Shown here: positions 15,904 through 36,331 of the stretch, in pieces
How the letters are laid out: every line of letters starts with the position of its first letter
Position numbering within the stretch: the first letter of the stretch is position 1
NCBI GenBank assembly: GCA_024404675.1
Contig: JAKSPO010000013.1
Span: 1 to 54,408 of the forward strand
Origin: Lachnospiraceae bacterium
GTDB taxonomy: Bacteria > Bacillota > Clostridia > Lachnospirales > Lachnospiraceae
Direction of reading: 5' to 3'
DNA length: 54,408 bases
Program-made: the position numbers and the translations under genes
The notes under the pieces: generated by a model
Database searches by the model: none
Seen by the model: only the letters and a program-made list of their open reading frames with translations
What the model was told of the DNA's origin: nothing

Positions 15904-18057
15904 TTATTCCATTACGACAGTCTGACCGGAATAGGAAAGCTCAAACTTCGCGGGAGCCTTCTTCATAAGGGATACGCTTCTGGTATCCGGAGCGGATGCG
16001 CCAACATATACCTCATAATTACCGGGGATGATGACACGCTCTGCAGCCTCATTGTATACGCCAAATGCCTTTGCAGGAAGTGTAATCTCAACCGTCTTAC
16101 TCTCGCCTGCTTCAAGGGTAACCTTCTTAAGTCCCTTGAGCTGAGCATTCGGAGCGCCCTCCAAAGGAGACTTTACATATACCTGAACAGTTTCTGCGCC
16201 GGCCATGGAACCGTTATTCTTAACGGTAACGCAAACCTTCGCACCCTCAGCAACTGCACCGGAAATCTTCACATCACTAAATGTGAAATCTGTATAGCTA
16301 AGTCCATATCCGAACGGATAGAGAGCCTCATTGGTCATATAACGATAGGTTCTGCCCTTCATTGCATACTCGGTAAATGCGGGAAGCTCTTCACTCGTAC
16401 GATAGAAGGTTATCGGAAGCTTACCCTCAGGACTGTACTCACCGAAAAGCATCTGTGCGATTGCACGGCCGCCCTGTGCACCGGGATACCAACCCTGAAC
16501 AATTGCCGGAAGATTCTCATCTGCCCACGGCACAGCAAGTGCACTACCGGACAGAAGCACCAGAATCACAGGCTTGCCGCTCTCGTAAAGTGCCTTCAGA
16601 ACATCCTCCTGAATACCCGGAAGCTGAAGATTCGGCTTATCACCGGAAGCGAACTCGTTACCCTGGTCACCCTCTTCTCCCTCAAGACCGGGATCAAGAC
16701 CCATTACTGCGATTACAACATCGCTCATTGCAGCAACCGCTCTTGCCTCAGCAGTACGGTCACTGGGCTGTCCAAGTCCCTGAACACGATCCTTGAACAG
16801 GTGGCAACCCTCAGAATACATAATTCTTGCCTGATCGCCGACATACTCTCTGATACCTTCCAAAACCGTAATATACTCGGAAGCGGTACCCTCGTAGTTT
16901 CCTACAAGCGCCTTACGATTGTCCGCATTCGGACCAACCACTCCGATTGTCTTAATCTCAGAAAGCTTAAGAGGAAGTGTCTGATTCTCGTTCTTCAAAA
17001 GTACGATTGTCTTCTTCGCAGCCTTCAGATTAAGTGCCTTATTAACAGCGGTATCAACCTGATCATAGCCGATTGTGTTGAACGGAACAGCCTTCTCATT
17101 ATCGAAAAGTCCAAGCTTCATTCTTGTTGTGAACAGTCTGGTGAGTGCACGATCAATCGTCTTCTCCTCTACAAGACCATCCTTTACAGCCTGGAGCAAA
17201 TGTACATACATATTACCGCAGTTCAGATCGCAGCCTCTGTTCATCGCGAGTGCAACGGTCTCAACCTCGTTCTTGGTTACCATATGGAATTCATGGAAAT
17301 CCTTCAGAGCCCAACAGTCAGAGGTCACATGACCGTCAAAGCCCCATTTGTCTCTAAGAATGTCTACCAGAAGTGTCTTGCTTCCACAGCAAGCCTCATC
17401 GTTGGTACGATTGTAGGCACCCATAACAGCCTCAACCTTACCCTCCTTAACACAAGCTTCGAAAGCCGGCAGATACGTCTCATACATATCCTGTTTGGAA
17501 ACCTTTGCGTTGAACTCATGGCGGAGATCCTCCGGACCGCTGTGTACCGCAAAATGCTTTGCACATGCAGCCACCTTCATATACTTCGGATCATGTCCCT
17601 GAAGACCGTCAATGAAACGAACACCGAGGCGTCCGCTCAGATACGGATCCTCACCATAGGTCTCATGGCCGCGTCCCCATCTGGGATCGCGGAACATATT
17701 TACGTTGGGGGACCAGAAGGTCAGGCCCTTATAAATGTCTCTATCTCCGTACTGTGCCTGCATATTGAACTTTGCACGTGCCTCAGTGGAAATGGTATCG
17801 CCAATCTCCTCCATAAGGTCTTCGTCAAATGCAGCTGCAAGTCCGATTGCCTGGGGGAATACCGTAGCAACACCTGCTCTGGCTACACCATGAAGTGCCT
17901 CATTCCAATAGTTATACGCCTTTACACCAAGCCGCTCGATTGCCGGAGCGTTGAAAAGAGTCTGAAAGACCTTCTCCTCAAGCGTCATCTCACTAACAAG
18001 GGCAGCTGCACGTTCCTTAAAGGACTTTGTTTCATCCTGATAAACCGGTGTACTCAT
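15904..18057 (-). CDS. Glycoside hydrolase family 3 (beta-glucosidase or beta-xylosidase)
   Basis: A retaining exo-acting glycosidase that removes terminal sugar residues. The 717-residue protein has the N-terminal barrel with NYWNEALHGVARAG (49-62), the KH pair (K167, H168) and the catalytic nucleophile D247 in VTSDCWALKDF. The alpha/beta sandwich follows, then a C-terminal fibronectin-III-like domain. There is no signal peptide, so it acts inside the cell. The NEALHGVARAG and SDCW forms are common among xylosidase and glucosidase members, so the sugar is not settled. It is near the end of the glycan cluster, behind strong hairpins that may lower its expression. GAGGAGG precedes the ATG. Confidence 0.93.
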   Translation of the reverse strand: MSTPVYQDETKSFKERAAALVSEMTLEEKVFQTLFNAPAIERLGVKAYNYWNEALHGVARAGVATVFPQAIGLAAAFDEDLMEEIGDTISTEARAKFNMQAQYGDRDIYKGLTFWSPNVNMFRDPRWGRGHETYGEDPYLSGRLGVRFIDGLQGHDPKYMKVAACAKHFAVHSGPEDLRHEFNAKVSKQDMYETYLPAFEACVKEGKVEAVMGAYNRTNDEACCGSKTLLVDILRDKWGFDGHVTSDCWALKDFHEFHMVTKNEVETVALAMNRGCDLNCGNMYVHLLQAVKDGLVEEKTIDRALTRLFTTRMKLGLFDNEKAVPFNTIGYDQVDTAVNKALNLKAAKKTIVLLKNENQTLPLKLSEIKTIGVVGPNADNRKALVGNYEGTASEYITVLEGIREYVGDQARIMYSEGCHLFKDRVQGLGQPSDRTAEARAVAAMSDVVIAVMGLDPGLEGEEGDQGNEFASGDKPNLQLPGIQEDVLKALYESGKPVILVLLSGSALAVPWADENLPAIVQGWYPGAQGGRAIAQMLFGEYSPEGKLPITFYRTSEELPAFTEYAMKGRTYRYMTNEALYPFGYGLSYTDFTFSDVKISGAVAEGAKVCVTVKNNGSMAGAETVQVYVKSPLEGAPNAQLKGLKKVTLEAGESKTVEITLPAKAFGVYNEAAERVIIPGNYEVYVGASAPDTRSVSLMKKAPAKFELSYSGQTVVME

Positions 18058-18093
18058 ATTTCCTCCTCATATCTCTGTAGCTTTGACAGGCTT

Positions 18094-18162
18094 CTCTTAT
18101 CTCAAAAAGCAAAAATAGTTGCTTTTTGAGATAAGAGGGGAATTTCCGAAGAAATTCCCCTC
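18094..18162 (-). terminator. Tandem hairpins between the binding protein and GH3 genes
   Basis: In transcript order a perfect 12-bp stem (18162-18151 with 18146-18135, loop TTCG) is followed by a perfect 17-bp stem (18137-18121 with 18110-18094). The second stem carries A and T runs. They overlap by three bases, so only one can fully form at a time. They may act as a partial terminator or as a 3-prime stability element for the binding-protein message. Confidence 0.75.
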
Positions 18163-18199
18163 TCAAAGGGAAAGAGTTTAGAAACTCATCTTTTAGAGC

Positions 18200-19609
18200 T
18201 TAGTTGAAAGCTGTGTTGAACTCATCAACCTGAGTCTGCCACTCAGCAGAGTGTGCCTCAACAGTCTCAGCACCGGTAGCGCCGCCACCGAGCTCATACA
18301 ACCAGTTAGGAGCGAAGCTAGGAATAAGGAAGCTTGCGTTCATGTACTGATCGTACTTGTTGATAAGGTTGTTACAGGTCTCGTTTACAGCTCTCTCATC
18401 ATTGAAGAGTGCCTCGTAATGAGCCTTCCATCTCTGATCATCATCAGCGTACTCCTCAGGAACACTGGTGTATACGTTGTAAGCATACATAATGTCCTCA
18501 GCAACACTCTTGGTAGAATCACAGCTAGGAACGATCAAAATGTTCTCACGAACGATAGAGATCGGCTTGTTAATAGCAGGACCGTAAGGGAAGCATACGA
18601 AACCAGCCTCGATGTTCTGCTCATTGATGTTGGAGATAGCGTACTGCTCCTCAATGAACATAGCTACACGACCATCATAGAAAGCAGCCTTGAAGTAATC
18701 CCAAGCGTCGCCCTCTTTCTCAGTGCAGAAGTATCCCTCATCATAGAAGGTACGGCCATAGTTAAGAGCGTCAAGAACAGCGGTGTCATTAGCGTTCATA
18801 ACAAGCTTGCCGGATGCATCCTGAGTGATTACGTGAGTACCATTGGACATAAGGAAAGCAGTAAACCATACAGTGTTCTGACCGGTTACACCGAAGATAT
18901 CGGTAGCACCGTCGTTGTCGGTATCCTTGGTAAGGCTCTTAGCGAGATCCTTGAATGCATCCCAGTTCCACTTGCCTTCAGCCTGAAGGTTGTAAGGAAG
19001 CTCAGGATCAACACCAAGCTGCTTGAAGATAGCCTTGTTGAAGAATACGCCGGTTCTAGGCTCGGTACCAGCAGCGAAACCATAGAGACCACCACCGATT
19101 TTCATAGCGTTGATAGCAGCCGTATTCCACTTGGAATCGCTCCAATCAACGGTAGAGATATTCCATACATCAAGGAATGCGCCCTGAGAAAGAAGAGCTG
19201 CGGTCCAAGTTGCATCGAAGGTAATGATCTGAGCCATAGGCTCGTTCTTGGAGATAGCAAGCATCTGAGCCTCAGTATACTCATTACCCCAACCACCAAG
19301 GTTCTTACGGGTGAAGGTGTAGTTATGATTCTTCATGGAATCATTCATCATCTCCCAATAAGCCTCTTCGTATGCGTTGTTAGCCTTGTTCCAGTCTTCA
19401 CCGGACCACCAGTCACCAAGTACTACTTCCAGACCCTTAAGATCTCTCGGCGGCTCAGTAGGCTTTACGTCCTGAGTAGGAGTAGGCGTAGAGGTTGCTG
19501 CCTGAGTAGGGGTAGGAGTAGGATCGTTTTCCTTCTTGCCACATGCTGCGCATGCAAGTGCAAATACTGCAACAGCAAGAACAAGAATAAGTTTCTTTGC
19601 GTTTTTCAT
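18200..19609 (-). CDS. Sugar-binding lipoprotein of an ABC importer (first)
   Basis: An extracytoplasmic solute-binding protein that delivers sugar to the two permeases next to it. The 469-residue protein has a signal peptide (1-19) and two candidate lipid-modified cysteines (C20 and C23 in LACAACGKK), then a threonine/proline linker (about 30-55). The rest is a family 1 binding protein with WWSGEDW, GGLYGFAAGTEPRTGVFFN and a C-terminal domain. Such proteins bind oligosaccharides. It follows its permeases, after a 149-base leader with inverted repeats, so it may be made in excess over the permeases. Substrate unknown. Confidence 0.92.
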   Translation of the reverse strand: MKNAKKLILVLAVAVFALACAACGKKENDPTPTPTQAATSTPTPTQDVKPTEPPRDLKGLEVVLGDWWSGEDWNKANNAYEEAYWEMMNDSMKNHNYTFTRKNLGGWGNEYTEAQMLAISKNEPMAQIITFDATWTAALLSQGAFLDVWNISTVDWSDSKWNTAAINAMKIGGGLYGFAAGTEPRTGVFFNKAIFKQLGVDPELPYNLQAEGKWNWDAFKDLAKSLTKDTDNDGATDIFGVTGQNTVWFTAFLMSNGTHVITQDASGKLVMNANDTAVLDALNYGRTFYDEGYFCTEKEGDAWDYFKAAFYDGRVAMFIEEQYAISNINEQNIEAGFVCFPYGPAINKPISIVRENILIVPSCDSTKSVAEDIMYAYNVYTSVPEEYADDDQRWKAHYEALFNDERAVNETCNNLINKYDQYMNASFLIPSFAPNWLYELGGGATGAETVEAHSAEWQTQVDEFNTAFN

Positions 19610-19645
19610 TTAAGGATCCTCCTTTAAAAAGTAAGTGATTTTGCG

Positions 19646-19740
19646 ATATGAGGCCCACTAATCACCGAAGTAACTAATAATGACGGGCGCCCCCTAGCCT
19701 CATATGCAAATTTATCTTAAAGCCGTCGTCACGACTTTAA
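19646..19740 (-). promoter_or_regulatory. Leader hairpins upstream of the binding-protein gene
   Basis: In the 149-base gap before 18200-19609, ATATGAGGC (19646-19654) pairs exactly with GCCTCATAT (19697-19705) across a 42-base loop that contains the palindrome GGGCGCCC. A second stem, TTAAAGCCG (19717-19725) with CGACTTTAA (19732-19740), follows the permease stop. These could cut or stabilise the message. No good promoter was found here. Confidence 0.5.
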
Positions 19741-19758
19741 TTCGAACTGAACTTCCGC

Positions 19759-20766
19759 TTAACCCTTAATACCACTCTGGCTAAGACTTTCAACGAAGCT
19801 CTTCTGCGCTACAACGTAGATAATAATCAACGGAACGAGAGAGATCAAAGTAGCCGTGGAAAGGATCTGCTGGGAATAACCGACGGGAACAAGATATCCG
19901 TTACCATAAACTGCCTGCAACTCATGAGACATGTGGTCAACAAGAGTAGGAAGGGAGTTCGCAATGGTGTACCATTCATGACCTCTTGCAAAGAATACTC
20001 TGGAGTATACACCGTCTGTCCACCACCATACGAAGGAGAACAGGAAGCAGGATACCATCATCGGTCTTGCGCCGGGAAGAAGAATCGACCTGAAGGTACG
20101 AAAACGGTTACAACCATCAACGTATGCTGCCTCTTCAAGTTCCTTAGGCTCGTTACGGAAATGCTGACGCATCAGGTAGATGTACAAACCACTCTTATAA
20201 CCGCCACATCCAAGACAAACTGCAAGGTAAGCCCAGAAGGAGCCGAGAAGGTTAATACCCTTACCATGGTTCATGGCTTTGATAATTCCAAGGAAATCGA
20301 ACTCAGAGAAGTCGAGGAACATAGGAGTTACCAAGGTCTGCGGGGGAACTACGATCAAAAGGATAACACAAGCGAACCACACATTCTTGAAAGGGAACTT
20401 ATATCTTGCGAATCCGTAGCCGGCAAGCGTACAGGATGCAACCTGTGCGATTCCGACCAGAACGCCGATATAAAGCGAGGTCCACATTGACTTGTTACCA
20501 TACATGTACATCCATGCAGTTTTAATCGCAGAAATCGAGAAATGTCTCGGAATATTAATTACGGTACTATCATACAAATCTTTCTCTGTCATGAATGCCA
20601 GAGAGATTTTCTGTAAAAGCGGCTGAAGAATCAAGAAACAAAGTCCAAGGACAAGTACTGCTCGGCATATACGAAAGATAATCTCTCCAATCTTCTTTCT
20701 TAACAGATATCCGCCGGACTTACGGTTTCTTTCAAAAAATTGATGTCTTTTCTCTTTATTAGTCAT
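19759..20766 (-). CDS. Sugar ABC transporter permease (MalG type)
   Basis: An inner-membrane permease of a sugar importer. The 335-residue protein has a basic N terminus, about six membrane segments and the EAA-loop EAAYVDGCNRFRTFRSILLP that docks the ATPase. It overlaps the upstream permease by eight bases, which suggests coupled translation. It pairs with the permease at 20759-21667 and the binding protein at 18200-19609. The ATPase is not in the window; such importers often share one ATPase (MsmK/MsiK type) encoded elsewhere. Confidence 0.92.
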   Translation of the reverse strand: MTNKEKRHQFFERNRKSGGYLLRKKIGEIIFRICRAVLVLGLCFLILQPLLQKISLAFMTEKDLYDSTVINIPRHFSISAIKTAWMYMYGNKSMWTSLYIGVLVGIAQVASCTLAGYGFARYKFPFKNVWFACVILLIVVPPQTLVTPMFLDFSEFDFLGIIKAMNHGKGINLLGSFWAYLAVCLGCGGYKSGLYIYLMRQHFRNEPKELEEAAYVDGCNRFRTFRSILLPGARPMMVSCFLFSFVWWWTDGVYSRVFFARGHEWYTIANSLPTLVDHMSHELQAVYGNGYLVPVGYSQQILSTATLISLVPLIIIYVVAQKSFVESLSQSGIKG

Positions 20767-21667
20767 AATAGTATACCCACCTTGTAATTATGAATGAGAT
20801 TATGCCGAGTATTCCCATTATTATAACAAAGTAAACCCAAGACATTGCAGCTGTTAAGCCGTAATCGAACTTTACAAACAATGTATTAGTAATCAAAGTC
20901 ATCAGGTCACTGTTCGATTTCGTACAGAAGTCTACGATCGTATAAACAACATTTACAAGAATCATAGAGCTGATCATCGGGAAGGTAATCTTCCAGAAGC
21001 TCTCCCATGCGGTACAGCCCTCAATCTTAGCAGCCTCATACATACTAGGGGAGATTGTCTGCAAACCGGACAGGAAGATAATGATCTGAATACCGGATGC
21101 AATTGCTACATCGTATACCTGGTCAACCAGCTTAATGATATATTCAAAGAAGGTGTTCGCCTTCTCACCGGTAAGAAGAATGTTCTCAAGTGTCTTCGTA
21201 ATGGAGGTCGCTGAGTTATCCTTCTTAATGATATCTGCCATACCACTGAGCAGGGAGTTGTTGGTCTCAAGACCAAGCATAATACCGGAGGAAAGAACTA
21301 CCGGCAGGAAGTATACGGCTCTTACAAAGGTTCTTCCCTTGAAATCCTGATTCAAAAGAATTGCCATGAAGAAGCTGAATACTAAAATCGCAGGAACGAA
21401 CAATGCCATGTTCTTAAGCTCGGTAAGGAGATTCGGAACATATTCAGCATCCTTGAAGAATACATCGTGATAGTTCTTCATTCCGATGAACTTATAGGCA
21501 AAACCTGCACCGTTTGTGGAAGTTACCTTACAAAGTGACATGTAGAAGGACTCAAACAACGGAACTACAAGGAAGAGAACGAAACCAATGATAAAGGGAG
21601 CAATGAACAAATATCCGGCAATTGCATTACCTTTGGCCAGGTTCTTATGCTTAACTGTCTTTGCCAT
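20759..21667 (-). CDS. Sugar ABC transporter permease (MalF type)
   Basis: The partner permease of the previous one. The 302-residue protein has about six membrane segments and a long extracellular loop typical of MalF-type subunits. The EAA-loop is EAAKIEGCTAWESFWKITFP. The stop of the DUF5696 gene directly abuts the ATG (TAAATG), and the GGAGG lies within the upstream gene, so the two are translationally linked. The link puts the surface protein and this importer in one unit. Confidence 0.92.
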   Translation of the reverse strand: MAKTVKHKNLAKGNAIAGYLFIAPFIIGFVLFLVVPLFESFYMSLCKVTSTNGAGFAYKFIGMKNYHDVFFKDAEYVPNLLTELKNMALFVPAILVFSFFMAILLNQDFKGRTFVRAVYFLPVVLSSGIMLGLETNNSLLSGMADIIKKDNSATSITKTLENILLTGEKANTFFEYIIKLVDQVYDVAIASGIQIIIFLSGLQTISPSMYEAAKIEGCTAWESFWKITFPMISSMILVNVVYTIVDFCTKSNSDLMTLITNTLFVKFDYGLTAAMSWVYFVIIMGILGIISFIITRWVYYYD

Positions 21668-24223
21668 TTAGTTTCCTCCTTTCTTAACTACCCAATCCTG
21701 TGCAGGGATTGTGATGTCGTCAGCCTTGTACTCTGTTACCCTATAGTTTACATAAACCTTCGTACCATTCGAGTAGGTCGTGCAGTAAACATTCTCTGCA
21801 AGTCTCTCATGGTTCTCAATCGTTTCAGCGGTAAGTGCACCAAAATCATCCTTATAACGATTATACAGTACATTTGCCTCATCCTTCCAGGAATTGTAGT
21901 TTGCACCGTAGTAGTTGGTGTACTTGGATTCCTGAAGCTCATCAGCGGTTGCTTCCATGAAGATGAAGTAAAGACCTGCACCGGTCTCAGCCGACTTCAG
22001 AAGGTTGGTAATGTAATCGTTCGTGATGTTAATGGAGTCACCGGTGTAACGGATATATCCATGAAGTGCAATTTCAAAGAACGGAAGTGCGCCATCCTCA
22101 ATACTTGCCTTATCGGAAGCGATCGGGAAATCAAGTACGATATCGGCATAAGGAAGTGCATAAAGGTTACCCTTGTAAATAACGGTATCGTTATTCTTAA
22201 GCTCTGCAAGCTTCTTAACCTGCTGCTCCATAACTGCCTGACGGCTTACGGTCTTCTTTCTGTGGTAGTTTGCACCAAGTGCATTACCGATAGAAGCAAA
22301 TGCAATGTTCTCAATACCAAGAGACTTCGCATCCTTTCTGTACGCCTCAAGAGCCTTCATCGAGTATTCAGGTTTTGCGAGATAATAAACATCACCGTCA
22401 TCAATCTGGCCGTACCAGATTTTACTTACTTCCTGGAACTTAGCAACCTCTCTGGAGAGGAATCTGGAAGCATCCTGCTTAGCCTGGAAGCTGTCGAACA
22501 GTGTATCGGACTTAACGAAAGTGAAATCAGCCTTGCCGGCTACGCTGTAGCCATAGCCCTTTGCTGTTGACAAGAGGCTCTTGAAGCTCTTCTTACTTCC
22601 AAGACGTCCAATCAGATCAATGTCATCCGGCCAGTCATGGTCGATACCGTCATTGAACCAACCGTTCAATACTACATTTACATCCTCCCAGCCGGAATCG
22701 TGAATGCTCTTAACAAGCTTCTCCATCTCAGCGTAGGTAGTAAGTGTATAAGGAAGCTCCTTCGGGAAACCGAGTACATGCTGAATCTTGGCTACTGCAC
22801 CAAGAAGTTCAACTGCGGTAGGAAGAGAGGTCTTCTCAACCTTCTGTGCAAGCTCCTCATAACGACCGGTCAGATATTCACGATAGGTCTTCGCCATTTC
22901 AACATAGCTGGAAGACTTAACACCCTTATAACGAACGGAAATCTTCTCGTCCTTAGGAAGGGATTTCTCAAACATATAAACTGCGGAAATGGAACGACCA
23001 CCGATATCTGCAATCTGGTTATGTACTACTGAGAATACATTCGTTACATAGTTGAACTTGTAAGTCTTACCTGCAACGTCTGCTTCGATCTTGGAGTAGG
23101 TATCACCAGCCTCGATCATTGCAAGAAGTGCAGCATTTCTGTCAGTATAGGAAGCTCCGTATACCGGGAAACGTGCAATCGGGTCTGCGATAATGATGTC
23201 ACGCTTCTGACCGTAGTCCCAACCATACATATTTGCACTGTAGGAACTCTGGGAGAGCTTCTGGTTATTGAAGTTAATGTAAGCACCGGAACCATCGGGA
23301 ACGAACAGATATCCGTTCTCAACCGTATCAGCTCCACAGAAGAAAGGAAGGATACGAATCTCGGTTACGGGATAAGCCTCGTAGAACTGAATCGTATTGT
23401 AAGGAATCTCAGCAACAAGGCTGTCATCCTCAAGCTTCAGGAACATGGAAAGGTTAATGTTCGGAAGGAGCTTCTCTTCGTTCTCCTGCATTCCGTACTC
23501 ATTGTCCTTCTCATAATCTTCGTTGGTATATCCACACTGCTCTTTGAAGATATTCTCAAGCTTCTCTTTCTGGTAGTTCTTCAAACTATCATAAAGCTCA
23601 TAAACCTTGATACCTTCCAGAAGATCAGGATACTTCTCGGAGTAGGTCTTCCACTTCTCCTCATCCTTCTTAAGCTTCTCGGGGTCAAGTGTACGGTACC
23701 AGTCACGAAGACACTTCTTTGCTTCGTCATCAACCATCTCACGAAGCTGCTGGAATCTTTCCTCGGGCATTACACTCGGGATGATATATGTCTTAGCCAT
23801 CAAACCGATGGAGAAATCGATTCGAATGGTAGAATCATCTACCTTCTCATATGTGTAGTTACCCTTTGCTACGCTATGCTCATAGCTGTTAAGGTACATT
23901 TTAACACCACTGCCGTTCTTGTACTCAAGATACAGAAGTGACATTACTCTTTCGTCTGCGGCTGCTACTGCTGCATCGGGGCAGGACTTCCACTGCTTGC
24001 CATTGGCATCTGTGAAAGTGAAAAGAGTAGTTACCGGATCAAACTCAAGCTTTACCTTACCGTTTTGAATCGTCTGCAATTCTGTGTCAATATCCGAGTT
24101 GAAGCGGAAGATATCCATCTTCTTAACTTCTTCCTCGGTTCCGCTTCCGAACTTAATAGCAAGGAAGGTAAGAACACCGATGATAACGCAGGTAATTGCA
24201 GCAGTAATTAACTTTTTCTTCAT
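21668..24223 (-). CDS. DUF5696 surface protein, possible glycan-acting enzyme
   Basis: The 851-residue protein has an N-terminal membrane segment (about 5-24) and no lipobox, so it is anchored outside the cell. It matches DUF5696 proteins, whose function is not established. Residues about 40-400 look like beta-sandwich modules with a helical, charged insert (about 165-245). The C-terminal half has stretches like those of alpha/beta barrels: SGWEDVNVVLNGWFNDGIDH, LPFFEIALHGYIRYTGDSIN and an acidic ADIVLDFP. I infer a surface glycan-processing or glycan-binding role from this and from its place among two sugar importers; catalytic residues cannot be assigned. The start ATG lacks an odd context. 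Confidence 0.78.
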   Translation of the reverse strand: MKKKLITAAITCVIIGVLTFLAIKFGSGTEEEVKKMDIFRFNSDIDTELQTIQNGKVKLEFDPVTTLFTFTDANGKQWKSCPDAAVAAADERVMSLLYLEYKNGSGVKMYLNSYEHSVAKGNYTYEKVDDSTIRIDFSIGLMAKTYIIPSVMPEERFQQLREMVDDEAKKCLRDWYRTLDPEKLKKDEEKWKTYSEKYPDLLEGIKVYELYDSLKNYQKEKLENIFKEQCGYTNEDYEKDNEYGMQENEEKLLPNINLSMFLKLEDDSLVAEIPYNTIQFYEAYPVTEIRILPFFCGADTVENGYLFVPDGSGAYINFNNQKLSQSSYSANMYGWDYGQKRDIIIADPIARFPVYGASYTDRNAALLAMIEAGDTYSKIEADVAGKTYKFNYVTNVFSVVHNQIADIGGRSISAVYMFEKSLPKDEKISVRYKGVKSSSYVEMAKTYREYLTGRYEELAQKVEKTSLPTAVELLGAVAKIQHVLGFPKELPYTLTTYAEMEKLVKSIHDSGWEDVNVVLNGWFNDGIDHDWPDDIDLIGRLGSKKSFKSLLSTAKGYGYSVAGKADFTFVKSDTLFDSFQAKQDASRFLSREVAKFQEVSKIWYGQIDDGDVYYLAKPEYSMKALEAYRKDAKSLGIENIAFASIGNALGANYHRKKTVSRQAVMEQQVKKLAELKNNDTVIYKGNLYALPYADIVLDFPIASDKASIEDGALPFFEIALHGYIRYTGDSINITNDYITNLLKSAETGAGLYFIFMEATADELQESKYTNYYGANYNSWKDEANVLYNRYKDDFGALTAETIENHERLAENVYCTTYSNGTKVYVNYRVTEYKADDITIPAQDWVVKKGGN

Positions 24224-24239
24224 TTCTATGCCTCCTACG

Positions 24240-24920: not shown

Positions 24921-26779
24921 GCCTCTTGAATCTCCTTTCTGATACGAAGAATCCAACGGATAATCTTCGGAATTACAATCAAAGCGATAAGAACTGCAAG
25001 GAACCATACAATGTTCTTCTCAACCACCTGCTCACGGTAGTATTTGAATGCCTTCGAGTAGTTCGTTCTGTCACGTACAACCTCGAACTTATTCATAGCT
25101 TCCTTGTACTCACCCTTACGAAGAAGGGAACGACCTACGCCGACATAAGCCAGATCGTAGTTACCGTTGTACTTAAGTACCTCCTGCCATACATCAGCGG
25201 ACTCGTCGTACTTACCGATTCTGTAAAGGCCGATTGCTTCGTTAACAAGCTGTCCGAATCTGGACATCTTAAAGATGGTAATTGTTCCAAGCTTTCTATC
25301 AAGAACAAGGAGTGTCTCCTCGTCAAGCTTGCCGATTGCAGAAGGCTTTGAGAAGCAGCCTGCGTTCATACCGGCATTACCGAAAGCATAAAGCATATTA
25401 CCCTGGAAGTCGTAGAAGAACAAACGACCTCTCTTCTTATCAAGACAGCAGTAAGTCTGATTCTCGAAGGTTACAACATCGACAAATGCGGAAGCACCTT
25501 CCATATCCTTCTGACCGATAACACCGTAGTACTTGAGGTCACCGATCGGATTGGAGTTACCGTTACGAACAAGAATGTCATCGCCCATCGAATTCAGCTT
25601 ACGAATCGGCTTTGCCATACCCTTGTTCAGATCGTCATCCGAAATAGAGTCGGTAGTAACATAAAGGAAGCCCTTTTCATCAAGTGTTACATTGTTATAC
25701 TCAGTAGGAACATACTGCTTTGTACGCTTCTTCTGCTCCTTAGTCTGGATTCTTCTCCAGAGACGCTGAATCAGCGTTACGGTAACCGGGCTTGCACCGA
25801 TATACTGTGTAAAGGTGCCATCCTTTGTGAACTCCATCAAACCGGAGTTAATATTGGTTGCCTGAACATAATAACGATATGCATCATCTACTACGAACTT
25901 ACTCGGAAGGAAGATGTACTCACCCTTCAGGGTCTCATCCACAGGATTGTGTACAACACCGATTACATTCAGATTGTAATCGCAATGGATAATTCTGTGG
26001 TTATCGTAGTCTGCAATGAAAAGATCGTAATCACGATTCAGTTTCTCTCTGACATCGTTCTGAACTCCATCAACAGGCTCGGAATCATTACCGTCCTCAG
26101 CGCCATCCTCGGAACCATCCTCAGCGCCCTCAACAGGCTCTGCATCAGGTGCCTCGGTCGTGGTCATCTCTGCGTCTTCAGCATTATCTGCGGAAGCACT
26201 CTGCTCCTCACCATCGGGCGTCTCACCATCGGGCGTCTCACCATCGGGCGTCTCGCCGTCCTCAGTGGTTTCTTCCTCAGGAGCCTTCTCAAGGTCCTCA
26301 GAGGTCGGAACATAAAGCTCACCAAGATACTCACCGTAAACCTTCTTACGGGTTTCATCATCAATCTTCTTTACGAAAATATCATAAGGATGTTTGAAAT
26401 CAAGTACAACCTGATCACCCTTATCAACCTTCATCTGATCAGCCTTATCTACAGAAACCTGAACGGTACGGATGATTCGAATAAGCTTGAATACATCATC
26501 AACATACTGCAGCTCAATAATTCTGTTGTTCTTGGAATCACAGATGTAGATCAAATCATCAATTACGAACATGCTCTCGGGGTCATTCAAAGTACCAACG
26601 CCCTCACCGAAGTTGGGTCCGTAGAAAATGTTCGATACATAATATGCATCGGGAGATGCTGTCTCATCACCCCAGAAATTGTATGTGTAGGTATACCAGT
26701 CGGAATCGGCCTTAGCGCCCTGTACAGTGGAACCAATCACACACAACAGAAGGAGGATGGTAAAAATACGTTTCTTCAT
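24917..26779 (-). CDS. Surface beta-propeller/TPR protein
   Basis: 620 residues with a signal peptide (1-24), several NHL-like repeats (DPESMFVIDDLIYICDSKN, RDYDLFIADYDNHRIIHCDY, DEKGFLYVTTDS), a TPR-like helical part (KYDESADVWQEVLKYNGNYD, RKGEYKEAMNKFEVV) and one C-terminal membrane segment (about 593-612). An acidic, low-complexity linker (about 165-235) includes TPDGETPDGETPDGE. The topology suggests a large extracytoplasmic sensor or scaffold held at its C terminus. No enzyme motif is visible. The start is ATG with AAGGAGG, 15 bases after the upstream permease. It is part of the conserved-looking DUF5696/YIP1 set, and its role is not known. Confidence 0.72.
   Translation of the reverse strand: MKKRIFTILLLLCVIGSTVQGAKADSDWYTYTYNFWGDETASPDAYYVSNIFYGPNFGEGVGTLNDPESMFVIDDLIYICDSKNNRIIELQYVDDVFKLIRIIRTVQVSVDKADQMKVDKGDQVVLDFKHPYDIFVKKIDDETRKKVYGEYLGELYVPTSEDLEKAPEEETTEDGETPDGETPDGETPDGEEQSASADNAEDAEMTTTEAPDAEPVEGAEDGSEDGAEDGNDSEPVDGVQNDVREKLNRDYDLFIADYDNHRIIHCDYNLNVIGVVHNPVDETLKGEYIFLPSKFVVDDAYRYYVQATNINSGLMEFTKDGTFTQYIGASPVTVTLIQRLWRRIQTKEQKKRTKQYVPTEYNNVTLDEKGFLYVTTDSISDDDLNKGMAKPIRKLNSMGDDILVRNGNSNPIGDLKYYGVIGQKDMEGASAFVDVVTFENQTYCCLDKKRGRLFFYDFQGNMLYAFGNAGMNAGCFSKPSAIGKLDEETLLVLDRKLGTITIFKMSRFGQLVNEAIGLYRIGKYDESADVWQEVLKYNGNYDLAYVGVGRSLLRKGEYKEAMNKFEVVRDRTNYSKAFKYYREQVVEKNIVWFLAVLIALIVIPKIIRWILRIRKEIQEA
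26211..26255. repeat. 15-bp tandem repeat, three copies
   Basis: Three near-identical 15-base units (26211-26225, 26226-26240, 26241-26255) inside the acidic linker of the NHL/TPR protein, read on the minus strand as PDGET repeats. They are in frame, so copy number could vary without breaking the gene. Confidence 0.85.
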
Positions 26780-26794
26780 TTTATGAATTCCTCC

Positions 26795-27661
26795 TTATTC
26801 CTTAATACCGGAGCTAGCCATGGTTTCTACGATGTTACTCTGCGCAAGCATGAAGCAGGTAACAGGAAGAATCATCATGAACAGCTGGGATGCAGAAGAT
26901 ACACCGGTTCGTGCGATACCACCGGAAGCGAGGGTACGAAGTGCGAACGGAAGTGTCTTCAAAGACTCAGTGTAAATATAAGTGGTACCGATGTTATTCC
27001 AAAGTGCCTGAATGGAGAAAATCATCAGGGTAAGAATAGCAGGCTTTACGAGCGGCATGATGATACGGAAGAAGATTCTTCCTTCCTTCGCACCGTCGAT
27101 CTTAGCTGCCTCAATCAGTACATCCGGAATACTCGATTCCATGAACTGCTTCATAAGGAAGAGGCCCATCGGAGATGCAAATGCCGGGATGATCAGAGCC
27201 AGATGGGTGTCGATCCAACCAAGTCTGGTCATAATCAAGTAGTTCGGAATGGAAAGAACGTAACCCGTGAACATAAGCGCTACGGTAACCAACTTAAAGA
27301 AGGTAGCCGAACCGGGGAAACGATACTTCGCAAGTACATATGCTGCCATGGAAGCAACAAGGATATGTCCGCCGGTACCAACAACCGTAATCAGAAGGGA
27401 GTTGAACGCGTAACGGATAAATGTGATGTTACCCATCTTGTTCATAAGAAGGAACAAGTCACTGATGTTCTTCGTCGTAGGGTTACGAACGAAAAGCTTC
27501 GGCGGGAATACAAACAGCTCATCAAGCGGCTTGAAAGCACCGTTAATGATGTATACCAACGGGAAGATGAAGAAGCATCCGAAAATAATAAGGACAATCG
27601 CTACACCGATATCACCCGCAAGTGATCGGTTAGGCTGTCTTCCAGCTTTAATTTTTTTCAT
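26795..27661 (-). CDS. Sugar ABC transporter permease (MalG type)
   Basis: 288 residues from the ATG at 27659-27661, which is seven bases after GGAGGG; an in-frame ATG two codons earlier is too close to it. About six membrane segments are present and the EAA-loop is EAAKIDGAKEGRIFFRIIMP. It is the second permease of the upstream importer in the cluster and pairs with 27677-28609 and the large binding protein 28627-31611. It sits before the NHL/TPR gene, with only 15 bases between them. There is no ATPase gene. Confidence 0.92.
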   Translation of the reverse strand: MKKIKAGRQPNRSLAGDIGVAIVLIIFGCFFIFPLVYIINGAFKPLDELFVFPPKLFVRNPTTKNISDLFLLMNKMGNITFIRYAFNSLLITVVGTGGHILVASMAAYVLAKYRFPGSATFFKLVTVALMFTGYVLSIPNYLIMTRLGWIDTHLALIIPAFASPMGLFLMKQFMESSIPDVLIEAAKIDGAKEGRIFFRIIMPLVKPAILTLMIFSIQALWNNIGTTYIYTESLKTLPFALRTLASGGIARTGVSSASQLFMMILPVTCFMLAQSNIVETMASSGIKE

Positions 27662-27676
27662 CGTCATTCCCTCCTA

Positions 27677-28609
27677 TCAAGTTCCAAGTCTGCTGAGTGC
27701 CTTCTGGATGAATCTGTTACACAGGTACATGCAGAGGAACAAAACAGTTGCGATTGCGGACGCATAACCCATTTCGAATCGGGTCTGGCCGTAGTCAATC
27801 AGGTGGGTAACAACGGTACGTGCAGCGTAGTCGGTACTCGGGAAACCACAAAGTGCCATCGTCTGGTCTGCAGTATTGAATGCGGTGGTAATTGCCATAA
27901 CCGCACCGAACATCAACATGGACTTCATGTTCGGAAGGGTGATGTACCAAAGCTCCTGCCAACGGTTCTTAATACCGTCTACATAGCCGGCCTCGTACTG
28001 ATCCTCCGGGATCGTATTAAGACCTGCGATGAAGGAAAGGAATCCGGTACCAAGGGAAGCCCACAGAATAACGATGATACAAATGGTAAGCATGTACTGC
28101 GGGTTATTCAACCATAGGATCGGTTTCTCTAAGATACCGAGCTCAACGCCCCAGGAGTTTGCATAGCCGTAAGAGTCGCCGGCGAAAATCAGGGTCCATA
28201 CAAGGTAAGCCTGACCGGAAATCGTAGGTGCGTAGAATACAAGTACGGCAACCGCACGAATTCTCTTCGGAAGCTCGTGAATCAACCATGCGAACAGGAA
28301 TGCTGCGATATATCCTACAGGACCTGTAATTGCTGCAACAAGGAATGTGTTCTTTACTGCAGTAAGGAAAATATCGTCAACGAGAATCAGGTTAATGTAG
28401 TTCTGCAGTGCGATGAAACGCGGGGGCTGCAATACATTATAGTAGGTAAAACCGAAATAGATGGATACTATAACGGGTACAACATAGAACAATGTGAAAA
28501 TAATGGCATAAGGAGCGAGGAAAGCGTAGCAGGTTCTGAACGACTTGATATCTCTCCACAGGAACTTACGACGCATCTGTTTCTGTCTTCTCCAGTTAGC
28601 ATAACTCAT
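27677..28609 (-). CDS. Sugar ABC transporter permease (MalF type)
   Basis: 310 residues with about six membrane segments and the EAA-loop region EAGYVDGIKNRWQELWYITLP, which carries a glycine in place of the second alanine. It lies 17 bases after the large binding protein and 15 bases before the MalG-type partner. It forms the first of the two importers in this cluster. Substrate unknown. Confidence 0.92.
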   Translation of the reverse strand: MSYANWRRQKQMRRKFLWRDIKSFRTCYAFLAPYAIIFTLFYVVPVIVSIYFGFTYYNVLQPPRFIALQNYINLILVDDIFLTAVKNTFLVAAITGPVGYIAAFLFAWLIHELPKRIRAVAVLVFYAPTISGQAYLVWTLIFAGDSYGYANSWGVELGILEKPILWLNNPQYMLTICIIVILWASLGTGFLSFIAGLNTIPEDQYEAGYVDGIKNRWQELWYITLPNMKSMLMFGAVMAITTAFNTADQTMALCGFPSTDYAARTVVTHLIDYGQTRFEMGYASAIATVLFLCMYLCNRFIQKALSRLGT

Positions 28610-28626
28610 ACGTTTTTCCTCCTTCC

Positions 28627-31611
28627 CTATTTATCCAAACCAAATTCTTTTCTCTTCTTAGCGATCTCTTCGTTAATATCTCTTGTGTAGTCAAGGAGAG
28701 TCTCACGAGGATCCTCGTGGTTCATCATAACCTTACGTACTGCATTAACGAGATGTCTCTGTGTGTAGTAGCCGCCGGCAACCTCAGGGGTACCAACAAC
28801 CCACTGCCACTGCTGAAGAATAATATTACGCTCCTTCGGGCTCCATGCAAGCTGGTCAAATGCCTTTCTGTTAGCAGTTGCATATCTTGCGGACGGTCCC
28901 ATAACTGCCTCAAGCTCCATACCGTAACGAGCCTGGATATCTGCACTTGCCCACCACTGAAGGAAGGTCCATGCCTGCTCGTGCTTGTCGGAGTTCTGAA
29001 GCATCATAGAGCATACACCCCAACACTGAATGCTTCTGTTGATATCAGGTTCACCGTCATGATCGGCATCAACCTTGTTGCCGTTCTCATCGAGAACATA
29101 GATACCGGGAACTAAAGCCATATCCCACAGACCAAGAATCTCAGGCGCGGATACCTGAAGGGTGTTGTACATACTGTAGTCGTACAAACCAAGCGGCATC
29201 TCACCACCACGGAAACGATCCTGGAAAGCATAATCCTGAGGAGTATTGTAATGTGTGAAGAACTTCGTGTATTCCTCAAATGCCTCAACGGCAACCTCGG
29301 TGTCGAGCATTACTCTGTCACCGTTCTCGGAGTAGAGGGAAGCACCACGCTGATAAAGCTGTGCGTACAAACCGTTCATATCCGGGCTTGCTACACCGTT
29401 GAACTTACGCTCGGTAGAAGGAATACCTACGTCCATGTTGGACTTCTGTAAGGTGGAAAGGATGGTTACAAGATCATCCCATGTATTCGGAACTTCGATA
29501 CCAAGCTCTTCAAAGATATCGGTACGATAGAACAATACGTTGAAGTTCTGGGTCTCAGGAAGTCCGTAAACGCCACCGTTATACTTATAAGGAATGTAAG
29601 CAGACTCTGCATACTCGGCAATAACCTCATCAAAGCTTCTTACACCGGTCATCGGATCGCCCTTGAACTGAGACAGCTCGCAAGCAGCACCTCGAAGTGC
29701 ATAGTTAACAGGCTCACCGGACGCAACACCGAGTGCTACATCAGGACCGGTTCCTGCAACGGTTGCCGGCAGAAGTACATCTGCGGTAATCAGGTCAAGG
29801 TTAACACCGATTCCATAATTAGGAACAAAGTCATCATCGATAAGAGTCTTCAGGATAACACTCTGATCACGACCACCGAAGATCCATACGGTGATGGTCT
29901 CGATGTCACCTTCGTAAACATTACCGATTGCGTTGTAGTCAACGACGAAGGAAGCACCAAAGGAACGAACCTCGTGAAGTGCCTTCTGGAACCAGTTCGA
30001 GGTATCCTTCTTAACCTTTGCATCGGAGCCGTGAACTACGATATAGTCGATATCGAGCTGCGCATCCTTCAAGGTAAGAATCTGTGTACCAAGAGAGGTT
30101 ACATTATTCTTAAATGCTGCAAAGTTCTTCGGAATCTTGGAATCATCGGCAGCGAATTTCTCAAGCTGGTCTGCAAGCGTAAGACATGCAGTAACCTGAG
30201 AGCCCTTCTCACCGGTGTATGCTACAAAGTCATCAATGAGCTTGTAAAGAACCCTGTACTCGGCATCCATAGCCTTCATAACCTCAGGATATCTCTGAGC
30301 AAGGTTGTAGTCACGGTTCTCATCGGGGTTCTTACCGGTAAGCACGAGAATCTGACGATACATCAGGTTCATACGATATACGCTATCGGTCATTCTGTTA
30401 AGAAGCTCACCCATCTCACCAAGAGTAACTTCCATACGGATGGAGTTCTTACCTGCATGCATGTAGAACTTGTACGGGTTGTTCTTCTCGTCGCTGATGG
30501 TGAACATCTTCCAGTCATTGGAGAAATCAAACTTAACAGCAGAAGCTTCCTCGAAAGGAATCTCACCATTAATATAAAGAGCACGGCAGGATACGAAACC
30601 ACGGTTGTAGTTCTGTCTTGCCTTAACGGTAAGCTCATAGAAGCCGTCAGCGGGAACTTCTACTTCCCACTCAATCCACTGTCCGGGCATCTTCCAGTTC
30701 TCGCCACCAATGATGTTAAGAATCTGCTTGGTAACGCTATAAGGATAGGTAACTGCGGAGGAACGATCGTACAGCGGGTACAAAGACTGAGACGAACGAT
30801 ACTTAGCCTTCTCACCTTCTACACGAACGCTTACGGAGTTGCTCATAGGCACAGAGCTATGCTCCTGGTTCATCTTGGAAAGATACTGACCATAGTTATC
30901 GCGCTCGGTAACTGCAGTAATCGTGAAATCCTTCAGAATCAGGGTCTCCTGAGACGCCTCGAGACGAATTACATTCTCGCCCTTCTCAAAATAGAAGCAA
31001 TAGGGCGTAGTAATATAACCAAGCTTATCCTTTACATAGGCAGTCTCCCAACGGGGTGCCTCAATCTGCTTCGGACGAAGCTCGTTACCTCTGTTGTCCT
31101 TTCTGGGCTCACTCGCATCGGTATAAATACGAGGGAACGTCAGTGTATCCGCACCGCTGAAGGGAGTTTCTCCGTTAATATAGAGAATTCTCTGAATCTC
31201 AACGCCGCGGGATGTCTTCTTATCCTGATCGGGATAATAAGTAAGCTTAAGGTTATACATTCCTGCAGTAGGAACATTGACGGTAAATTCTACATAACCG
31301 CCTTCATAGGACTTCAATACTCCGGTCTCACCGTAGCAGTCTCTACGCTCGTACAGCTCACCAGCAGTCAAATCCTTTGCCAGGTCGATTGCAATATCCT
31401 GGGTCGGATAAGCCTTACCCTGGTGCTTCACCAAGTAAGCAGAGTAGGAGTCAGCACGGCCTTCGCCCTCAATCTGAGAGAAATCGAAGCCCTTGTACTT
31501 GTCAGAATAGTCAGTCTTCTTCGTCAATCCATTCCAAACAAGGAGAAAGATTACGACAGCCACTGCCAGAATCGACCAGTACACACTCTTTTTCTTTAAA
31601 ATCTTTAACAT
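28627..31611 (-). CDS. Large membrane-anchored sugar-binding protein with extra N-terminal modules
   Basis: The 994-residue protein has an uncleaved-looking membrane segment (about 12-28) and no lipobox. Residues about 60-430 seem to form two carbohydrate-binding-like beta-sandwich modules, each with a FYEL/MYNLKLTYY-type core, YINGE and a C-terminal GKNSIRME or GENVIRLE strand. A helical segment (about 430-560) follows, and the last 450 residues are a family 1 solute-binding domain (GLPETQNFNVLFYRTDIFEELGI, GPSARYATANRKAFDQL). This is twice the length of a normal binding protein. I infer it captures polysaccharide at the surface and feeds oligosaccharides to the adjacent permeases. It is the first gene after the regulated promoter. 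Confidence 0.85.
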   Translation of the reverse strand: MLKILKKKSVYWSILAVAVVIFLLVWNGLTKKTDYSDKYKGFDFSQIEGEGRADSYSAYLVKHQGKAYPTQDIAIDLAKDLTAGELYERRDCYGETGVLKSYEGGYVEFTVNVPTAGMYNLKLTYYPDQDKKTSRGVEIQRILYINGETPFSGADTLTFPRIYTDASEPRKDNRGNELRPKQIEAPRWETAYVKDKLGYITTPYCFYFEKGENVIRLEASQETLILKDFTITAVTERDNYGQYLSKMNQEHSSVPMSNSVSVRVEGEKAKYRSSQSLYPLYDRSSAVTYPYSVTKQILNIIGGENWKMPGQWIEWEVEVPADGFYELTVKARQNYNRGFVSCRALYINGEIPFEEASAVKFDFSNDWKMFTISDEKNNPYKFYMHAGKNSIRMEVTLGEMGELLNRMTDSVYRMNLMYRQILVLTGKNPDENRDYNLAQRYPEVMKAMDAEYRVLYKLIDDFVAYTGEKGSQVTACLTLADQLEKFAADDSKIPKNFAAFKNNVTSLGTQILTLKDAQLDIDYIVVHGSDAKVKKDTSNWFQKALHEVRSFGASFVVDYNAIGNVYEGDIETITVWIFGGRDQSVILKTLIDDDFVPNYGIGVNLDLITADVLLPATVAGTGPDVALGVASGEPVNYALRGAACELSQFKGDPMTGVRSFDEVIAEYAESAYIPYKYNGGVYGLPETQNFNVLFYRTDIFEELGIEVPNTWDDLVTILSTLQKSNMDVGIPSTERKFNGVASPDMNGLYAQLYQRGASLYSENGDRVMLDTEVAVEAFEEYTKFFTHYNTPQDYAFQDRFRGGEMPLGLYDYSMYNTLQVSAPEILGLWDMALVPGIYVLDENGNKVDADHDGEPDINRSIQCWGVCSMMLQNSDKHEQAWTFLQWWASADIQARYGMELEAVMGPSARYATANRKAFDQLAWSPKERNIILQQWQWVVGTPEVAGGYYTQRHLVNAVRKVMMNHEDPRETLLDYTRDINEEIAKKRKEFGLDK

Positions 31612-31697
31612 TGGACCCTCCGTTCTGTAGGTGTCTTACACCCCATGCCTTCAATCTGATAGGCGCAACACCTCAGAAATCACCATGATGTGAAAAT

Positions 31698-31726
31698 ATT
31701 ATATAAAATAAGTCTTGATTTTGCAC
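31698..31726 (-). promoter_or_regulatory. Promoter of the glycan cluster
   Basis: On the minus strand a perfect TATAAT (31698-31703) has 17 bases before it a poor -35, GTGCAA (31721-31726). A good -10 and poor -35 suggest dependence on an activator, probably the adjacent AraC-type protein. The -35 bases are the same ones used by the plus-strand promoter. Confidence 0.6.
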
Positions 31727-31749
31727 TTCAATTTTTGCTATATTATAAT
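31721..31749 (+). promoter_or_regulatory. Promoter of the AraC-type regulator
   Basis: TTGCAC (31721-31726) is followed after 17 bases by TATAAT (31744-31749). The leader to the ATG is about 225 bases. Confidence 0.75.
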
Positions 31750-31804
31750 CAAATATTGCTAAAACAGCCCATATTTACAAAAATAAATCACATTATTTGG
31801 TCTG

Positions 31805-31914
31805 TTTTGTGCAAAAAAGTAGAAAGGAAAATACCATTTACCTTATACATTTTCCGTTCTTTACTTAAAAATCACTAAAACCGCCAGCGTTTTTTGTGCA
31901 TTTTATGCATTTTT
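31805..31914. promoter_or_regulatory. Candidate AraC-type operator repeats
   Basis: TTTTGTGCA occurs at 31805-31813 and 31892-31900, and its core occurs inverted at 31722-31726. TGCATTTTA and TGCATTTTT are adjacent (31897-31905, 31906-31914). Spaced repeats of this kind are typical of AraC-type binding sites; here the match is inferred. Confidence 0.4.
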
Positions 31915-31980
31915 AACCAAGCGGCACCCCCTTTTGTCCATTCTTTAAATAGCAAAATATGAAACACAAGGAGATTCTAT

Positions 31981-32850
31981 ATGGCTCGTGAGCTTGACGG
32001 CACCTTTGAAAAGGTCGCCTATGAGGACAACAACCTGGTTCTGATGTATATCAACCGCCAAAGTGAGGATTACAACACACATTGGCACACTGCAGCCGAA
32101 ATCATCATGCCGCTCGAGAACGGTTATCAGGTAAGCATCAATAATAAGCAGTACGATCTGCGGGAACACGATATCCTTTTCATCCCGCCCGGGGAGCTGC
32201 ATGCCCTGATCGCTCCGCAGACCGGTGCACGTCTCATTTTGATGTTTAACTTCTCAGTTTTCAACGCAATCGATGATTTTTCGGCGATCACGCCGATTCT
32301 GTCGCAGCCGGTGCTGATTTCGCCGCGCTCGTATATGGATGTGCACGGCATCGAAGTGGGGCTATTGAACAAGATCATCGCCGAGTATCCGAAGCAGTCC
32401 GAGCCGCTTCGCATCGCCATGATCTATTCCTACCTGCTACAGTTCTTCGTACATCTCGGCAGGCAGCACATCCGTACCGAGGTCATCTTCCCGGATGTCC
32501 GTTCCGGCAAGCAGACGGAATATGTGGAGAAGCTTAATAACGTCATCACCTACATCAATTCCAATTACACCGAAGAGATTACCTTAGAGAAGGCCTCTTC
32601 CATCGCCGGCTTCTCGAAGTTTCATTTTTCGAGACTTTTTAAGCAATTTACCGGTCAGTCCTATTATAATTATCTGAACCAGCGGCGCGTAAAGGCAGCT
32701 GAAGCACTTCTTCTGAATCCGCACCTGTCTGTTACGGACGTTGCAATGCAGTCCGGGTTCACTTCGATTGCAACCTTCAACCGCGTATTCCGTCAGATTA
32801 AGGACTGTACACCCTCCGAGTATAAGATTTACTACCACAGCAGGCACTAA
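31981..32850 (+). CDS. AraC-type transcriptional regulator
   Basis: 289 residues: an N-terminal cupin sensor domain (about 30-90) with HWHTAAEIIMPLENG and HDILFIPPGELHAL, and a C-terminal pair of helix-turn-helix motifs (about 190-285) with ITLEKASSIAGFSKFHFSRLFKQ and SVTDVAMQSGF, ending FNRVFRQIKDCTPSEY. The cupin probably binds a sugar. The start ATG has AAGGAGA upstream. It is divergent from the large glycan cluster, so it most likely activates it in response to an imported sugar. It ends 10 bases from the converging HAD gene. Confidence 0.93.
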   Translation: MARELDGTFEKVAYEDNNLVLMYINRQSEDYNTHWHTAAEIIMPLENGYQVSINNKQYDLREHDILFIPPGELHALIAPQTGARLILMFNFSVFNAIDDFSAITPILSQPVLISPRSYMDVHGIEVGLLNKIIAEYPKQSEPLRIAMIYSYLLQFFVHLGRQHIRTEVIFPDVRSGKQTEYVEKLNNVITYINSNYTEEITLEKASSIAGFSKFHFSRLFKQFTGQSYYNYLNQRRVKAAEALLLNPHLSVTDVAMQSGFTSIATFNRVFRQIKDCTPSEYKIYYHSRH

Positions 32851-36322: not shown

Positions 36323-36331
36323 TACATACCC

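Follow-up and report, generated by a model that had tools for sequence, protein, structure and literature searches.

A probable glycan-import operon of a Lachnospiraceae bacterium and its relation to the xylan degradation locus of Caldicellulosiruptor bescii

Gene order shared with a xylan degradation locus

The closest described counterpart of the nine-gene cluster examined here, which lies in a 54,408-nucleotide stretch of DNA from a Lachnospiraceae bacterium (assembly GCA_024404675.1, contig JAKSPO010000013.1; hereafter the window, meaning the whole stretch), is the xylan degradation locus (XDL) of Caldicellulosiruptor (Anaerocellum) bescii. Its operon was published in 2021 as xloEFG-X-GH129-axoFGE-xynF-xynE-xynD-xyn10A-xynX-xynB (PMC8579813). 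XloEFG and AxoFGE were termed CUT1 transporters, the proximal XDL genes were induced about 10- to 100-fold on xylan vs. cellobiose, and deletion of msmK, the gene of the shared ATPase, impaired growth on oligo- and polysaccharides (PMC8579813). In C. saccharolyticus, the XDL transporter genes Csac_2412 and 2419 were up on acid-treated switchgrass, and Csac_2412 and 2417-2419 were up on lignin-reduced Populus (PMC5658599). The XynR operator of the C. bescii XDL was reported in 2025 (PMC12285236).

The window genes are closely packed on the minus strand at 18200-31611, and Pfam confirmed their families (DUF5696 558 bits, Yip1 46, SBP_bac_1/8 53-57, BPD_transp_1 34-55, TPR_2 27.4, and NHL 21.9). 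In the direction of transcription they encode a solute-binding protein (SBP2), the permeases PermB2 and PermC2, an NHL/TPR protein, a YIP1 protein, a DUF5696 protein, the permeases PermB1 and PermC1, and a second binding protein, SBP1 (Table 1). The same order was found in locus L112. The 20-base XynR operator was present as an exact match in one of 134 loci, namely L112, where it lies 150 bases upstream of SBP2; L112 is therefore the C. bescii XDL or nearly identical to it. Judged by position, 'X' would be the NHL-YIP1 fusion gene and 'GH129' the DUF5696 gene.

Both loci encode two CUT1 importers that lack an ATPase of their own, with an ATPase of the shared type encoded elsewhere. They differ in that NHL/TPR and YIP1 form one fused gene in C. 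bescii and two overlapping genes in the window. In addition, the C. bescii operon continues into a GH43/CBM6 enzyme and more xylan genes under XynR, whereas in the window only a glycoside hydrolase family 3 (GH3) gene follows and an AraC-type regulator is adjacent. A preliminary description of the window had proposed an undescribed glycan system, which proved half right. The glycan part stands, since the families co-occur, the two importers come without an ATPase, and glycan-degrading families surround the relatives; the operon type itself has been published, as the xylan-induced gene order of C. bescii. A literature search, to which subscription journals were largely closed, returned no paper on DUF5696 and nothing on the 'X' and 'GH129' genes beyond the operon string. 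Within the searchable literature, the generality of the arrangement, the gene fusion, the copy number and the constant association of the 'X' and 'GH129' genes appear to be new. It also seems new that three accessory surface or membrane proteins are a fixed part of the importer in the related loci examined.

The window cluster has the features of CUT1 importers: binding proteins, two permeases each, ATPase-coupling loops (located by pattern in PermB1 and PermC1 and by eye in the other two), no local ATPase, and an MsmX-like ATPase elsewhere in the genome. The latter is on contig C3 (574 bits to 7x0q, 478 bits to MsmX 6yir) and would be the one that serves the window importers; a second, borderline OB_MalK match is on contig C23. 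Hydropathy plots indicated an N-terminal hydrophobic segment in each of SBP2, DUF5696, SBP1 and NHL/TPR, a second one near the NHL/TPR C-terminus, and about five in YIP1. SBP2 also has a sub-threshold match resembling carbohydrate-binding module (CBM) 35 near its N-terminus. We consider it very likely that the nine genes serve glycan import.

The nine-gene cluster that the preliminary description had outlined, with GH3 at its end and a divergent AraC gene, was recovered with every gene in its place, as were the overlapped or abutting junctions: ATGA at NHL/TPR-YIP1, TAA-ATG at DUF5696-PermB1, and PermB1-PermC1 overlapping by 8 bases. For YIP1 the longest open reading frame (ORF) opens at 25007; we set its start at 24920 because this gives the ATGA junction and agrees with the relatives. 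An AG-rich, Shine-Dalgarno-like stretch precedes every start of the nine genes. PermC1 and SBP1 are separated by 149 bases. GH3 is only a putative member of the operon, because the 142-base gap between SBP1 and GH3 contains a weak terminator-like hairpin (the region has 17 terminator-like sites vs. 13.2 ± 3.8 in shuffles).

Table 1. Positions of the nine cluster genes and of the two genes next to them in the window
Feature	Coordinates	Strand	Description
SBP2	28627..31611	-	994-residue binding protein; N-terminal hydrophobic anchor; C-terminal SBP_bac_1/8; position of xloE
PermB2	27677..28609	-	CUT1 permease; EAG variant of the ATPase-coupling motif (by eye); position of xloF
PermC2	26795..27667	-	CUT1 permease; EAA motif (by eye); position of xloG
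NHL/TPR	24917..26779	-	N-terminal signal/anchor, NHL repeats, TPR, C-terminal hydrophobic segment
YIP1	24240..24920	-	YIP1-domain membrane protein; ~5 predicted transmembrane segments; start overlaps NHL/TPR stop
DUF5696	21668..24223	-	N-terminally anchored; distant GH129/DagB relative; C. bescii 'GH129' by position
PermB1	20759..21667	-	CUT1 permease; EAA motif; position of axoF
PermC1	19759..20766	-	CUT1 permease; EAA motif; position of axoG
SBP1	18200..19609	-	Binding protein; varies most within the set; position of axoE
GH3	15904..18057	-	Closest to beta-xylosidases; outside the conserved core
AraC-family regulator	31981..32850	+	Divergent; AraC-binding domain; local regulator, outside the conserved core

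Co-occurrence and the conserved core

To survey the phylum, 299 genomes drawn evenly across it were searched with PF18952 (DUF5696, at the Pfam cut-off) and with an NHL/TPR profile (at least 100 bits). DUF5696 was over cut-off in 26 genomes. The NHL/TPR profile marked 27, the next best genome scoring 59 bits; these were all 26 DUF5696 genomes plus G243, which has no DUF5696 match and whose NHL/TPR match meets the end of an 8538-base contig. The association (26/26 vs. 1/273) has a Fisher's exact p of 1.4e-36, uncorrected for relatedness of the genomes. The preliminary description had named absence of co-occurrence as grounds for giving up its proposal; the search instead strongly confirmed the expected co-occurrence, both families marking the same 26 genomes.

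Gene order was then compared in two sets of loci. One set of 44 was obtained by scanning named genome contigs with the window DUF5696 protein; it is biased to close relatives, many of them, by record title, Clostridia of herbivore guts. The other set comprised 40 of the 44 over-cut-off PF18952 matches of the phylum search besides the window's own (G135:C101, G082:C81, G082:C250 and G101:C83 were left out). Loci were counted as testable if they had enough sequence on the relevant side (at least 2.6 kb upstream for NHL/YIP in the 44-locus set), and a tolerance was allowed for permease adjacency, since longest-ORF starts overlap the preceding gene. In the 44-locus set, NHL and YIP lay upstream of DUF5696 in 40/40 testable loci, PermC2/PermB2 upstream of NHL in 38/38, and PermB1/PermC1 downstream of DUF5696 in 36/36. 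In the 40-locus set, NHL and YIP adjoined DUF5696 in all 40 and PermB1/PermC1 followed it in 38/38, while PermC2 adjoined NHL in 18 of 35 testable loci and PermB2 in 17. NHL-YIP1-DUF5696-PermB1-PermC1 is thus the constant core in testable loci, and the second importer, which stands beside NHL in only about half of the testable loci of the 40-locus set, is therefore dispensable. Chance juxtaposition or an assembly join was rejected because the 84 related loci conserve the order over the sequence available for each.

Median identity of the window proteins to the named relatives was 60% for PermB2, 56% for PermC2, 48% for SBP2, 46% for PermC1, 45% for YIP1, 44% for PermB1, 40% for NHL/TPR, 32% for DUF5696 and 28% for SBP1. 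Greatest divergence in SBP1 and DUF5696 is as expected if these are the parts that meet the substrate. SBP1-like ORFs downstream numbered one in 52 of the 84 loci, none in 26 and several in 6; the loci with none are partly short stretches, and SBP1 also diverges fast. Five SBP1-like ORFs stand in a row directly downstream of PermC1 at L111:13115-19899, and six follow PermC1 at L078:10525-17499, where an overlap between the first two suggests that they may be a single broken gene; these tandem arrays look as though several binding proteins were served by one importer. The PermC2 ORFs of most of the 44-locus set have ~390-440 residues vs. 290 in the window. In one of them (L032:6561-7793) the Pfam match begins at residue 227 vs. 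107 in the window, consistent with an N-terminal extension of about 110-120 residues or an upstream mis-start.

The NHL/TPR-YIP1 unit and the DUF5696 protein

In 27 of 38 testable loci of the 40-locus set, one ORF with a length of 672 to 835 residues spans NHL/TPR and YIP1; in the other 11 the two are separate, and in the 44-locus set the fusion was found in 0/40. That they are fused in some lineages and encoded by overlapping genes in others is a classical sign of joint function, and suggests that they are in physical contact. It had been proposed that the three surface proteins process a polymer. This is doubtful, as YIP1 belongs to the integral membrane proteins, NHL/TPR appears to form one unit with it, and DUF5696 may bind rather than cut. 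The two importers might, as was also proposed, take up different products.

NHL/TPR-YIP1 could alternatively be part of a sensor: one of the two importers together with NHL/TPR-YIP1 would bind oligosaccharides outside the cell and signal through YIP1, tuning uptake or expression rather than serving as a transport scaffold. The presence of two importers in a single operon and the adjoining divergent AraC regulator are compatible with this idea, and a second binding protein with a signalling role, CuaD, is reported from Ruminiclostridium cellulolyticum (PMC10384115). All four permeases nevertheless keep the ATPase-coupling loop, and a Pfam search of NHL/TPR and YIP1 detected no signalling domain, kinase or otherwise. 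The AraC regulator was absent near most relatives (matched in just 3 of 44 loci: L034, L037 and L070) and was rejected as a core part. We regard the sensor function as unlikely and prefer a transport scaffold, with a slight leaning towards NHL/TPR-YIP1-DUF5696 forming a complex with PermB1/PermC1.

Two DUF5696 profiles (A1, built from 39 proteins, and A7, from 40 diverse proteins) both matched DagB (5opq), 8rzg and NagBb (5wzn). The matched regions were the first part of the barrel and, for DagB and 8rzg only, an N-terminal stretch. Searched on its own, the DUF5696 protein of L085 had no match among solved structures at E 0.1, and the window protein matched PF18952 and not the GH129 family PF11308 (matches reported at E ≤ 0.1). 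A genome search with PF11308 gave 0/249 and was uninformative, since the control genomes gave none either. The AlphaFold2 model of DUF5696 (mean pLDDT 83.1, pTM 0.82) has alternating strands and helices over residues 469-756. A Gly-Trp pair is nearly invariant in 82 DUF5696 proteins (Gly in 81, Trp in 82). In NagBb an Asp precedes it, at position 322 of chain 5wzn, which is Ala in the variant 5wzq and which we take to be one of the two catalytic residues. None of the 82 DUF5696 proteins has Asp there and one has Glu. Lacking both this Asp and a PF11308 match, DUF5696 was not accepted as a plain GH129 member.

DUF5696 could still be a working membrane-bound exo-glycosidase that, as the label GH129 implies, takes a side group off the captured oligosaccharides ahead of their import. 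Its sequence relatives NagBb, a GH129 alpha-N-acetylgalactosaminidase, and DagB, a GH129-like 3,6-anhydro-D-galactosidase, are both active enzymes, and the model, with its alternating strands and helices, is confident. Acidic residues are well conserved (D336 in 79, D710 in 75 and E746 in 79 of 82 proteins). DagB uses Asp202, Asp486, Glu517 and Glu531, and its authors argue that it is not a true GH129 enzyme (PMC5698469); this acid set is non-canonical, and DagB resembles DUF5696 in lacking Asp before Gly-Trp. The missing Asp itself speaks against catalysis, as does D644, which is Asp in 60 of 82 proteins and Ser in the window; D644 falls near the equivalent of NagBb Asp435/DagB Asp486 by rough spacing only, as the profile alignment ends before it. 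Unlike NagBb and DagB, DUF5696 has an N-terminal membrane anchor and importer genes as neighbours. DUF5696 may thus be a binding protein or an enzyme whose active site is unusual: we give the exo-glycosidase a real but somewhat less than even chance, and whether DUF5696 mainly binds rather than cuts is, in our judgment, evenly balanced. One relative, L066:9836-17449, is a DUF5696 ORF of 2538 residues with an insertion of several hundred residues, a ~1300-residue C-terminal repeat-like region and, by eye, an extra hydrophobic segment.

Glycan setting, probable substrate and proposed mechanism

For the glycan setting we scanned 163 of 183 other ORFs flanking the 40-locus set, after exclusion of those matching the nine core families. 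Twenty were omitted by hand, mostly short, edge or overlapping ORFs, among them an 885-residue AraC-type protein (L077:14390-17044), and the 182 flanking ORFs of the 44-locus set were left aside. The 25 commonest families were listed per batch, of 88 in the first (73 proteins) and 97 in the second (90 proteins). Those of the first batch include GH42, GH10, GH27-type, GH43, GH95, GH31 and GH29, and those of the second GH43, GH3, GH26, alginate lyase, GH130, CBM4_9, CBM6 and CBM35. By contrast, no glycoside hydrolase was among the 25 families listed, of 187, for random stretches of genomes with the system. Some flanking genes are clearly unrelated (EF-G in L082, AsnA in L089). Several genomes have many copies, as judged by over-cut-off PF18952 matches with fragments and split matches counted: 11 in G062, 10 in G135, 8 in G165, 11 in G040 and 22 in G082, of which 14 are long (fragments occur mostly in G082). 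Neighbours vary among the copies of one genome: pectic acid lyase with a GH106-type gene, GH31/GH29/GH42, GH27, and GH28 with a rhamnogalacturonan-lyase-like gene in G062; GH42, GH43/GH3 and GH10/GH95 in G165.

These degradative families bear on whether the system instead serves the cell's own envelope, through export, recycling or assembly of a surface polymer, with the degradative neighbours secondary. The accessory proteins are membrane-bound, we know of no catabolic role for NHL/TPR and YIP1, and an NAGPA-domain (phosphodiester glycosidase) protein lies beside a GT2/GtrA-type glycosyltransferase at 35213-37390 of the window. Against an envelope function stand the many flanking genes of degradative families, the presence in 26/299 genomes, which suits a housekeeping function poorly, and the induction of the counterpart by xylan along with xylan enzymes (PMC8579813). 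We consider such a function very improbable and keep to glycan import.

The GH3 product at the cluster end is nearest to beta-xylosidases among solved structures; its best score was to the Xyl3A model (833 bits, below the curated cut-off of 1250). It is probably cytoplasmic because it has no hydrophobic N-terminal segment. GH3 is present where the preliminary description placed it, and is probably linked to the operon in function; it was rejected as part of the conserved core, as it occurs in 0/44 loci of one set and 5/40 of the other, some of these being weak matches. The genome of the window has 4 GH10 and 5 GH43 matches, on other contigs. Three other genomes of the same family were searched, and the system was found in G142 only, where, in locus L095, a GH10 gene precedes SBP2 and SBP1 is followed by genes for a GDSL esterase, a GH3 and a SASA-type esterase. 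Xylan-derived oligosaccharides are the favoured substrate in the window's genome, with acetylated or substituted xylan as the best guess.

The nine genes are, in our view, probably an oligosaccharide capture-and-import operon of the Caldicellulosiruptor XDL kind. A polymer would be cut by secreted enzymes encoded elsewhere, and the oligosaccharides would be bound by membrane-tethered SBP2 and SBP1 and passed to PermB2/PermC2 and PermB1/PermC1, while a single ATPase of the MsmX/MsmK type, shared by the two importers and with its gene elsewhere in the genome, would power both. One membrane unit made of NHL/TPR and YIP1 would most likely serve as a scaffold and hold the binding proteins and DUF5696 against the importer PermB1/PermC1. 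The N-terminally anchored DUF5696 protein would most likely bind and possibly trim the incoming glycan.

Several observations weigh against this assignment. Of the four Caldicellulosiruptor-like loci, a single one has the XynR operator in exact form; L101 and L106 offer at best matches with 5-7 mismatches, and the L102 stretch excludes the region upstream of SBP2. No GH10 or GH43 was found among the window proteins scanned, and only the beta-xylosidase-like GH3 follows the window cluster, past the hairpin. The enzyme neighbours differ among relatives (pectin-, galactan-, fucose- and xylan-type), so that the case for xylan draws on the neighbours and a single counterpart. The random control covered 19 stretches of system-carrying genomes and, within them, 115 of the 237 ORFs with 200 residues or more; as its listing shows 25 of 187 families, single glycoside hydrolase matches could hide in it. 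The second importer is not beside NHL in 17 of 35 testable loci of the 40-locus set, and that NHL/TPR-YIP1 associates with the permeases is deduced only from the fusion and the order of the genes. Even inside the window's own family the system is patchy, as G222 and G246, two of the three other genomes searched, are without DUF5696 and NHL/TPR.

Ten other window ORFs were searched in Pfam; three had no match, and seven matched ribosomal protein S7, a sigma-70 factor, a class I tRNA synthetase (E/Q), a UvrD-type helicase, NAGPA, glycosyltransferase 2/GtrA and a sodium:solute symporter. The NAGPA/GT2 pair is followed by a 530-residue protein without a Pfam match (33608-35200). Just downstream of GH3 on the same strand are a predicted class II fructose-bisphosphate aldolase and signal peptidase I, assigned by eye (14070-15038 and 15221-15868).

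Gram-positive polysaccharide utilization loci (gpPULs) likewise group an ABC importer, a regulator and degradative enzymes, with several loci per genome. The present system differs from gpPULs in its constant NHL/TPR-YIP1-DUF5696 module and, in many loci, its double importer. In SusCD-type uptake (TonB-dependent SusC and the SusD lipoprotein) the likeness is limited to role and copy number; the nine window proteins match no such Pfam family.

The best reading of the 'X' and 'GH129' parts is a general accessory module used with many glycans. More tentatively, NHL/TPR-YIP1 and DUF5696 might be a platform dedicated to glycan capture, built on ABC importers and corresponding, in a single-membrane cell, to SusC/SusD. 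Its membrane chassis would be constant, with enzymes and binding proteins (as many as five or six SBP1-like ORFs in a row) that can be exchanged, and some genomes of the phylum would carry about 8 to 14 copies or more, each for another glycan; DUF5696 would be a binding subunit of GH129 fold rather than an enzyme. If this is true, bacterial nutrient import would be a new role for YIP1. The 'X' and 'GH129' genes may serve as a marker for annotating glycan loci, and the findings point to an unstudied common part of plant-fibre sugar uptake in these bacteria.

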